30,719 bases of DNA from a virus, in the IMG/VR virus record IMGVR_UViG_3300044540_000109, positions 1 to 30,719 of that record, one strand, 5' to 3'. This document shows positions 18,470 through 20,006 of this stretch, in pieces. A program made the position numbers and the translations under genes. Position 1 is the stretch's first letter, and the number at the start of each line of letters is the position of its first letter. Below the pieces are notes generated by a model. That model was not told the DNA's origin. It saw only the letters and a list, made by a program, of their open reading frames with translations, and made no database searches.

Positions 18470-19125
18470 GAATAAGAAGATTTAACGAATCAAAGGAAGA
18501 AGATTTAGAAGAATATTTTATTGATTTTATCGATTATGGATTTTCTTATACTAACCAATTAAATAAATTCTTCTTAAAGTTAAATATCAAAGACAAGCAA
18601 GTAGATTTTAGTGAAATCTATGCTATGTATGATATGCTTATTAATAGATTATTAGATACAAAAGGTATTTCAAAGACAGTTTTTGAATTTAAAGAAACTG
18701 TTATAAATGTTATGGTTGAAATAGCAAATAAAATGACTGATGAAGATGTTATCATAAAAGTTATTTTTAAAGGACAAGAGTTAAAATTAAAACCTTTTGG
18801 TGTAAGAATTTATAGTTATATTACCGATTCTGTGCCTAACAAGAAAACTATTTATTCAATAACATTAGAATGTTATGATATTAATAATGTTAAAAAATTA
18901 ATAACTTGGAGTGTTAAGAATGGTGGACACGTAACTGATCAAATAACAAAAGATAATAGTCTTGTAAGAATAGGTGGAAACAATATAAAAATAGATATTG
19001 AAAATGCTACTATAATATTTAATAGTATTATAGATAAAAGTATAGTGCAACTATACCTAGATAATGATAGAGGATTAGGAGTATTTAAAGAAATAATGAC
19101 ACCTGAAATGTTATCAAAAATATAA
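18466..19125 (+). CDS. Leader-bearing protein related to the tandem array (219 aa)
   Basis: The 219-aa protein starts MRIRRFNESKEEDLEEY and continues FIDFIDYGFSY, which is recognisably the leader plus (C)FVEFIDNGS block of the 9050-11269 array. It is therefore a dispersed and longer relative. The extra 100 or so residues form a second region (about 110-219) with many beta strands and no motif I know. It overlaps the Nudix stop by 4 bases and ends at a strong terminator. A packaged protein is suspected from the leader. Confidence 0.7.
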   Translation: MRIRRFNESKEEDLEEYFIDFIDYGFSYTNQLNKFFLKLNIKDKQVDFSEIYAMYDMLINRLLDTKGISKTVFEFKETVINVMVEIANKMTDEDVIIKVIFKGQELKLKPFGVRIYSYITDSVPNKKTIYSITLECYDINNVKKLITWSVKNGGHVTDQITKDNSLVRIGGNNIKIDIENATIIFNSIIDKSIVQLYLDNDRGLGVFKEIMTPEMLSKI

Positions 19126-19149
19126 CCCTTCTTATGAAGGGTTTTTTTA
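19124..19149 (+). terminator. Terminator after the 17402-19125 operon
   Basis: Stem AACCCTTC / GAAGGGTT with a TTAT loop and a T7 run. The TAA stop overlaps its 5' edge. Confidence 0.9.
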
Positions 19150-19171
19150 TTGTATAACTGAAAAAAAGGAT

Positions 19172-19179
19172 TATCTTTG
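19172..19179 (+). promoter_or_regulatory. Bacteroidetes-type promoter, TATCTTTG
   Basis: TATCTTTG with the usual TAGAAAAATAAACAGAT leader to the ATG at 19197. A TTG lies about 19 nt upstream as a weak -33 element. Confidence 0.8.
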
Positions 19180-19196: not shown

Positions 19197-19991
19197 ATGA
19201 TAACAAGAGTCGCACCATCACCTACCGGATTTTTTCACTTAGGAACATTGGTTATAGCACAATTAAATTACTTAATGGCGAGAGCAAATAAAGGAACCTT
19301 TATTCTTAGAATTGACGATACTGATCAAGATAGAAATAAAGACGAATATATTGACTATATCTATTCTCAAATGAGTGACTTTGGATTGGATCATGACATT
19401 ACATTCAAACAATCAGATAGATTGGCTAGATATGCTGATGTAGCTGCTAAAATTGGTAAAAAAACTGATGATGGATACGTTTTAGATATGGTATCTAATA
19501 CAGGAGATTTATACGATATGGTAATACTTAGAAATAACGGATTCCCAACATATAACTTCTGTTCTATTTTAGATGATTATGATTATGATGTTACGAATAT
19601 TATTCGTGGTGCTGATCATATCGCAAACGAATTCAAACAAAAACAGATTTGGGATAGAATTTGTAAAGTATATGGGGACAAAACTTTCCCATCAGTTACA
19701 CATATGGGACTTTTGTTTGATGGTGCTAAAAAACTATCTAAAAGAAGTGGTAACGGAACTACACAGGATTATAGTGACTTTGATAAAGATGCTATTTTAA
19801 ATTGGTTGGTTAAATTTGGATGGTCACATCCCGATCCTAAATTTGATAAACACTACCCGACTTTAAGTATGACTCAAATGACTCAAATTTTTAATGATGG
19901 GAAAATTCTTAAAAACAATTGTAAAATTGATAGAAATAAATTAATATTCTTAGACAAGAAATGGAAAGGAATAAAAAAAGCCACTTTATAG
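19197..19991 (+). CDS. Minimal glutamyl-tRNA synthetase-like protein, catalytic core only
   Basis: The 264-aa protein is a class I GluRS-type catalytic core. It has APSPTGFFHLGT with the HIGH motif as HLGT (14-17), the glutamate-site strand FILRIDDTDQDR (35-46), PTYNFCSILDD, RGADHIAN and the KMSKS loop as KLSKRSG (179-185). A short stem-contact region (KIDRNKLIFLDKKW) follows, and the protein ends where the anticodon-binding domain of full GluRS (about 470 residues) would begin. It is thus nearer in size to GluQ-type tRNA(Asp)-modifying enzymes (about 300 residues). It may charge or modify a tRNA, or act on another acceptor. I see no tRNA gene nearby. Confidence 0.85.
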   Translation: MITRVAPSPTGFFHLGTLVIAQLNYLMARANKGTFILRIDDTDQDRNKDEYIDYIYSQMSDFGLDHDITFKQSDRLARYADVAAKIGKKTDDGYVLDMVSNTGDLYDMVILRNNGFPTYNFCSILDDYDYDVTNIIRGADHIANEFKQKQIWDRICKVYGDKTFPSVTHMGLLFDGAKKLSKRSGNGTTQDYSDFDKDAILNWLVKFGWSHPDPKFDKHYPTLSMTQMTQIFNDGKILKNNCKIDRNKLIFLDKKWKGIKKATL

Positions 19992-20006
19992 TGGCTTTTT
20001 CTTTTT
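19975..20006 (+). terminator. Terminator with the GluRS-like stop inside
   Basis: Stem AAAAAGCCACT / AGTGGCTTTTT with a TTAT loop and a T-rich tail. The TAG stop (19989-19991) spans loop and 3' arm, so the last four codons are part of the hairpin. It also separates the gene from the convergent gp25-like gene. Confidence 0.9.

Follow-up and report, generated by a model that had tools for sequence, protein, structure and literature searches.

A family of reduced, stand-alone glutamyl-tRNA synthetase cores from huge phages and some plasmids

The window analysed here is the whole 30,719-bp viral record IMGVR_UViG_3300044540_000109 of IMG/VR, and the gene in question is an open reading frame (ORF) at positions 19197-19991 whose product resembles the catalytic core of glutamyl-tRNA synthetase (GluRS). 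Sequence analysis places this core among the stand-alone GluRS cores of huge phages and a small number of plasmids, which together form a monophyletic family descended from bacterial-type GluRS. The window core is confirmed, again at the level of sequence, to be without two GluRS parts, namely the anticodon-binding domain and the acceptor-stem-recognition insert, of which a stub is left.

Two parts lost from the GluRS fold

A first-pass annotation of the window had described a 264-residue ORF with HLGT, LRIDDTD and KLSKRSG motifs, and the translation agrees exactly with that description. The product scores 144.4 bits with Pfam tRNA-synt_1c (PF00749; cut-off 23.4, E=4.9e-42), a match far beyond chance. 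The features of the gene are listed below.

19197..19991, + strand: GluRS-like core ORF of 264 amino acids (aa), ATG at 19197 and TAG at 19989-19991, with a Rossmann catalytic domain and stem-contact fold, anticodon-binding domain absent
19236..19247, + strand: HIGH-type motif HLGT, residues 14-17, from sequence
19305..19325, + strand: LRIDDTD motif, residues 37-43, from sequence
19455..19517, + strand: stub in place of the GluRS acceptor-stem-recognition insert, residues 87-107, from alignment
19551..19559, + strand: TYN within PTYNF (region of residues 119-121), with the glutamate-site residue Tyr119, from conservation
19605..19619, + strand: RGADH, residues 137-141, with the glutamate-side-chain residue Arg137, from conservation
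19731..19751, + strand: KMSKS-type motif KLSKRSG, residues 179-185, from sequence
19953..19988, + strand: Lys-rich C-terminal tail, residues 253-264, net charge +4

Tyr119 and Arg137 presumably correspond to Tyr187 and Arg205 of Thermus thermophilus GluRS. The window core stops where the stem-contact fold of GluRS ends, so that the anticodon-binding domain is missing, and T. thermophilus GluRS (Protein Data Bank (PDB) entry 1j09) aligned to it only over 1j09 residues 2..326. In the best PDB match, 7k86, query residues 3-87 align before the alignment jumps to query residue 103 and approximately 74 target residues are skipped. The first-pass annotation had recognised the absence of the anticodon-binding domain and overlooked this second loss.

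The stretch at the place of the insert measures 16-21 residues in 17 sequences of clade A and 24-49 residues in clade B, the two branches of the family described below. The same stretch has 43-86 residues, mostly 74-86, in 77 bacterial GluRS, 67-68 in two sequences of the GluRS paralog GluQRS and 81-93 in eight full-length GluRS of phages or plasmids. The 77 were kept from the best 80 bacterial matches, which had been chosen partly by the pattern FILRIDDT, after L100, L101 and L103 were dropped for open frames of less than 400 aa; none of these 80 was noted as a protein of the core type. The stub lacks Cys in all but one of 16 clade A sequences, whereas the GluQRS insert of approximately 67 residues contains Cys. 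By its place and length, the lost insert appears to be the subclass Ib acceptor-stem module, which Table 1 of PMC10810186 gives as a 'loop flanked by two helices' of 63-100 aa for acceptor-stem recognition.

Two of the bacterial GluRS also have a short insert, of 51 residues in L105 and of only 43 in L090 (5959-7338, 459 aa). Because the L090 protein keeps its anticodon domain, shrinkage of the insert alone implies no new acceptor and is compatible with an ordinary synthetase. The L090 gene, a natural intermediate for insert loss, is located two genes downstream of hemA, as recognised by eye.

Structure prediction, which the first-pass annotation had proposed as a check, gave a better fit to GluRS than to GluQRS. 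The window-core model (predicted local distance difference test, pLDDT, 92.8; predicted template modelling score, pTM, 0.91) matched GluRS 2ja2 and 1j09 with Z 28.4 and 2.1 Å over 254-259 residues, and GluQRS 4a91 with Z 22.7. The clade B model (pLDDT 89.2) matched GluRS 7k86 with Z 32.6 and 2.2 Å over 282 residues, and GluQRS 4a91 with Z 27.6.

Membership, conservation and transcription signals of the family

The first-pass annotation had described phage cases of GluRS-like cores as few, a rarity not borne out by the 42 records found, 38 of which are viral. Clade A comprises 28 records: the window, LR745206.1 (73% identity), 22 IMG/VR contigs, three more records and L391. This count includes several near-identical copies as well as two partial records, L023 and L078. 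Clade B consists of ten viral contigs of 63-608 kb (the largest 607,744 bp), which were reached via the Variovorax plasmid protein, and four plasmid records; the plasmid search identified a 310-aa core on Methylobacterium indicum pVL1_2 (L387) and a 263-aa core interrupted by an insertion sequence (IS) on three Variovorax plasmids. The nine intact viral members of clade B are 269-302 aa long with the anticodon domain absent. The clade B core gene at L413 8001- falls into two neighbouring frames, of 230 and 74 aa, through either a frameshift or a sequencing error. In L386, which is Variovorax sp. SRS16 plasmid 2, an IS21-type element interrupts the 3' end of the core gene. The neighbours of the L386 core, five tRNA genes together with peptidyl-tRNA hydrolase, NAD kinase, NUDIX and AlkB genes, are possibly the remains of a huge phage. 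The surroundings of the core on pVL1_2 are likewise phage-like (RusA, toprim, SSB, DnaQ, YqaJ recombinase and tRNA isopentenyltransferase).

In a 61-row tree, made after removal of columns filled in less than 75% of rows, the 17 clade A and 11 clade B rows form one clade with support of 100/99. This clade stands apart from full-length GluRS, those of the same phages included, and from GluQRS, which the trees represent by two rows only, both with long branches. An earlier 55-row tree gave clade A support of 100/100 and a long stem branch of 2.05. The derived residues T17, G171, D217 and G235 are common to both clades.

The ratio of nonsynonymous to synonymous substitution rates (dN/dS; Nei-Gojobori, NG86) is approximately 0.06-0.17 in eight of nine pairs and undefined in the ninth, with dS saturated in several. 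Maintenance of the core gene under purifying selection, as opposed to decay, is strongly supported. Decay of a full-length phage GluRS, a reading already disfavoured, is extremely improbable as the origin of the core. The frameshift in L413 and the IS21-type interruption in Variovorax would fit such decay, but the same two losses are found across the monophyletic 42-record family at the dN/dS values given above, the gene has its own promoter and terminator, and it is not derived from the full-length GluRS of the phages. The earlier statement that the gene is not a recent accidental truncation is thus strongly supported by the monophyly of the family, purifying selection and a conserved active site.

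All 29 sequences (17 from clade A and 12 from clade B) share residues R4, A6, S8, D40, Y119, R137 and K182, so the check on glutamate- and ATP-site conservation suggested in the first pass came out positive. The position of D40 holds Asp in 53 of the 77 bacterial GluRS, a ratio biased by the choice among the best 80 on the basis of FILRIDDT. Loss of catalytic residues in relatives, which had been named as grounds for refutation, was found in minor form only. The first His of HIGH is present in 15/17 clade A and 12/12 clade B sequences and is Gln in the other two of clade A. KMSKS is changed in 3/12 clade B sequences (Ser to Ala in one, Arg to Ser in two), and one further clade B row has a gap there where the frame is broken; D41 is Asn in 1/12 and D43 is Asn in 2/12 of this clade. 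The cores at L003 724- and L017 1475-, which belong to different branches of clade A, both read MQIGN instead of FHLGT at HIGH. Directly upstream, both have a member of the same gene family, f38, judged by eye to be GIY-YIG-like, and recombination or convergence is possible.

The KLSKR serine is present in 17/17 clade A and 11/12 clade B sequences. The toxin kinase HipA phosphorylates this serine in GltX, and a non-catalytic core could act as a decoy or regulator, for example by soaking up a toxin kinase of this kind. Retention of the KLSKR loop would suit such a role, which we nevertheless regard as very unlikely, as constraint spans the whole active site and not just this loop, and in clade B the serine is replaced by Ala in one member and the Arg is lacking in two.

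The transcription signals around the window gene are the following.

19124..19143, + strand: terminator of the upstream gene, which insulates the core gene
19150..19179, + strand: Bacteroidetes-type promoter, with TTG at 19150-19152, a spacer of 19 nucleotides (nt) and the -7 element TATCTTTG at 19172-19179
19975..20000, + strand: intrinsic terminator (fold z=-4.4), whose hairpin contains the stop codon 19989-19991

The -7 element was called with what we take to be the Bacteroidetes promoter consensus. TAnnTTTG occurs at most 100 nt upstream of 10/16 cores, compared with 405/4800 random 100-nt stretches of the same loci. The host-type promoter and the stop codon built into the terminator, both pointed out in the first pass, were found again here. 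Ten genes surround the core in the window. Most are unknowns; those that could be recognised encode a clamp loader, a baseplate wedge and a late sigma factor. One window gene exhibits 78-79% DNA identity with LR745206.1 and LR756502.1, huge phages of the 'Mahaphage' size class, and for their clade PMC7162821 indicates Bacteroidetes hosts.

Glutamate activation and the candidate acceptor

The core probably activates glutamate, forming glutamyl-adenylate with glutamate specificity provided by Arg137. Glutamate, not glutamine, is the predicted substrate because Arg137 stands at the position of what we take to be Cys229 in GlnRS; the GlnRS mutant C229R (2rd2) is among the fold matches. The Rossmann catalytic fold and the stem-contact fold are both retained. 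In a less certain step, the glutamate would then be transferred to the 3' end of tRNA, mainly phage tRNA, gripped solely by the active site, the stem-contact fold and the Lys-rich C-terminal helix and tail, with the anticodon unread. The net charge of this tail is +2 to +5 in 16/16 clade A sequences examined. The core may be one of several stripped synthetases that top up charged tRNA late in infection. That the bare catalytic core charges tRNA, chiefly phage tRNA, is the reading we tentatively favour, because of the fellow stripped synthetases, the proximity to tRNA genes, the lack of another GluRS in most records and the reports of urzyme activity. A bolder version, in which a living synthetase reads no anticodon and a near-ancestral GluRS core alone charges tRNA or a shorter acceptor RNA within a stripped Glu/Leu/Val/Asx phage set, is doubtful.

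The one complete core-bearing genome is LR745206.1 (W01; 634,780 bp), which also encodes a 492-aa full-length GluRS with its anticodon domain, a GlnRS-like protein (identified by sequence, with no score against a GlnRS model) and 59-61 tRNAs. A translation island at 30017-35709 (L230), 6-12 kb from the core, encodes elongation factor G (EF-G; 654 aa, over the cut-off), a MetRS-like protein (457 aa) and a stripped ValRS-like protein (443 aa); the last lies 10 kb from the core with the EF-G and MetRS-like genes in between. LeuRS-like proteins of 419-422 aa, against a family model of 843 positions, are encoded in LR745206.1 (404831-406099), G003 (271618-272886) and G007 (35498-36757; L249, L282 and L336, respectively). 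Their PF00133 alignment skips from approximately 245-258 straight to 295, as would fit a lost editing insert. Asx-type class II catalytic-domain ORFs of 286-306 codons are located in G007 (40044-40898), G009 (77186-77980), G002 (163994-164758) and LR756501.1 (W04; 88649-89446). These are too short for an anticodon domain, and stripped synthetases are thus present in both classes. All of the stripped LeuRS-, ValRS- and Asx-like proteins fall far under the cut-offs of the full-length families. LR756502.1, LR756504.1 and LR756501.1 encode full-length PF00749 proteins and no core. In the 19 clade A contigs and ten clade B viral contigs searched, all of which may be fragments, no second GluRS/GlnRS domain was found.

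The core is nearer to tRNA genes than most ORFs in 12 records, nine of clade A and three of clade B (Fisher p=0.014). These were the retrievable records, a non-random sample from which G014 was dropped as it has no tRNA, and the proximity gives weak support for a tRNA link. In G024 the core is located 511 nt from three tRNA-Glu genes, and only 1% of ORFs are as near. In 6/13 scanned loci (L391, clade B viral contigs and plasmids), a tRNA gene lies no more than 1 kb away from the core. Phage tRNAs with odd anticodon loops in ARAGORN (two- or four-base anticodons or ??? calls) were seen at L018 6464-14991, L022 5635-15851 and L004 16370-16459.

Several observations weigh against tRNA charging. 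Both of the usual tRNA-gripping parts are reduced or missing in the family, and the HIGH and KMSKS substitutions described above affect some of its members. In LR745206.1 the core is an extra enzyme, dispensable there for charging Glu or Gln, since a full-length GluRS and a GlnRS-like protein are present. Within clade A alone (nine records) the tRNA proximity is weak (p=0.03) and driven by G002, where the core lies 28 nt from tRNA-Trp. The tRNAs are distant from the core in G009, G005 and LR745206.1, no tRNA was found within the flanks examined of the L387 and L410 cores, and the 30,719-bp window itself contains no tRNA gene.

Some of the same evidence would suit a core that activates glutamate for a non-tRNA acceptor such as a protein, nucleobase, lipid or small molecule. 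MshC, HisZ and PoxA are synthetase paralogs that lost tRNA-binding parts and serve other acceptors. The core has likewise lost both tRNA-gripping parts with its active site intact, the family has the long stem branch (2.05, clade A) and a full-length GluRS and GlnRS-like protein occur alongside the core in LR745206.1. This reading is unlikely, however: the core is accompanied by tRNAs and other stripped synthetases, and there is no conserved neighbour to serve as an acceptor or modifying partner. No gene family beside the core is common to more than 3 of the 27 loci compared, and the neighbouring genes are uninformative on the function of the core.

The core is an exact subset of the GluRS domains, and could instead act in trans by docking on a host or phage GluRS, such as the full-length enzyme of LR745206.1, or on another tRNA-bringing protein. 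We consider this very improbable, as there is no conserved partner gene and no separate anticodon domain in nine of ten records, the one found being part of a full-length GluRS. A split GluRS was also tried and rejected: in these ten records Anticodon_2 occurs only in the full-length GluRS of LR745206.1, and no separate PF00749 piece covers the missing insert.

Under the usual account, synthetases evolve by the addition of modules to a minimal core, and only engineered fragments have served to try the usefulness of such cores in cells. The present family, natural and conserved, with the anticodon domain gone and the acceptor insert shrunken, makes that usefulness directly testable. If the core does charge tRNA, it would be a natural counterpart of the urzymes and of the proposed pre-module synthetase stage, re-created by loss. 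If the acceptor is other than the 3' end of tRNA, the core would be a phage-encoded amino-acid ligase of a new type. In both cases the family is relevant to the question of why tRNAs, synthetases and elongation factors are found in huge phages.

Comparison with GluRS, GluQRS, urzymes and full-length phage GluRS

By the features tested, the core is neither GluRS nor GluQRS, and is a GluRS core in architecture. The cores make up a family of synthetase paralogs whose build is unusually reduced, and no description of this family was found in the open-licence literature searched. It shares with bacterial GluRS (GltX, TIGR00464, EC 6.1.1.17) the catalytic and stem-contact folds, the HIGH- and KMSKS-bearing class I Glu/Gln catalytic domain, the glutamate-site residues and the top PDB and fold matches. 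Unlike GluRS, it has no helical anticodon-binding domain, and its acceptor-stem-recognition insert is shortened in both clades to the lengths given above. The window core scores 195.6 bits against TIGR00464, under the curated cut-off of 289.95, and five clade B proteins score 232.7-271.4 bits, also below 290, whereas the full-length GluRS of LR745206.1, as a control, is above it with 390.5 bits.

GluQRS (YadB, TIGR03838) is likewise a GluRS paralog of approximately 300 aa without the anticodon-binding domain. It glutamylates queuosine 34 of tRNA-Asp, and a core with a comparable role would modify tRNA away from its 3' end. The shared size and overall reduction, the place of GluQRS 4a91 as second-best fold match after GluRS for both clades, and host queuosine as a possible target are consistent with such a role. 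It is quite unlikely all the same, and the least supported of the roles proposed in the first pass. The core lies outside the GluQRS branch of the tree and scores 115.1 bits against TIGR03838, under the cut-off of 276.7. GluQRS retains its Cys-containing insert (67-68 residues in the two sequences), which the core does not, and its KMSKS motif reads KLSKQ. A phage-borne queuosine pathway is unsupported, with tRNA-guanine transglycosylase (TGT) in 0/12 phage records and weak QueC matches in 1/12.

The class I urzymes are laboratory constructs that also consist of a catalytic core without acceptor insert or anticodon domain, and are reported to aminoacylate tRNA (PMC10810186). The phage core differs in being natural, in retaining the stem-contact fold and connecting strands, and in having twice the expected urzyme length, which is approximately 130 aa (PMC10810186). 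Full-length GluRS of huge phages is documented in Extended Data Fig. 7 of Al-Shayeb et al. 2020 (PMC7162821). It is found in the same phage group, and LR745206.1 encodes both types, but at 492 aa it carries the anticodon domain, belongs to another branch of the tree and has 27% identity to the core.
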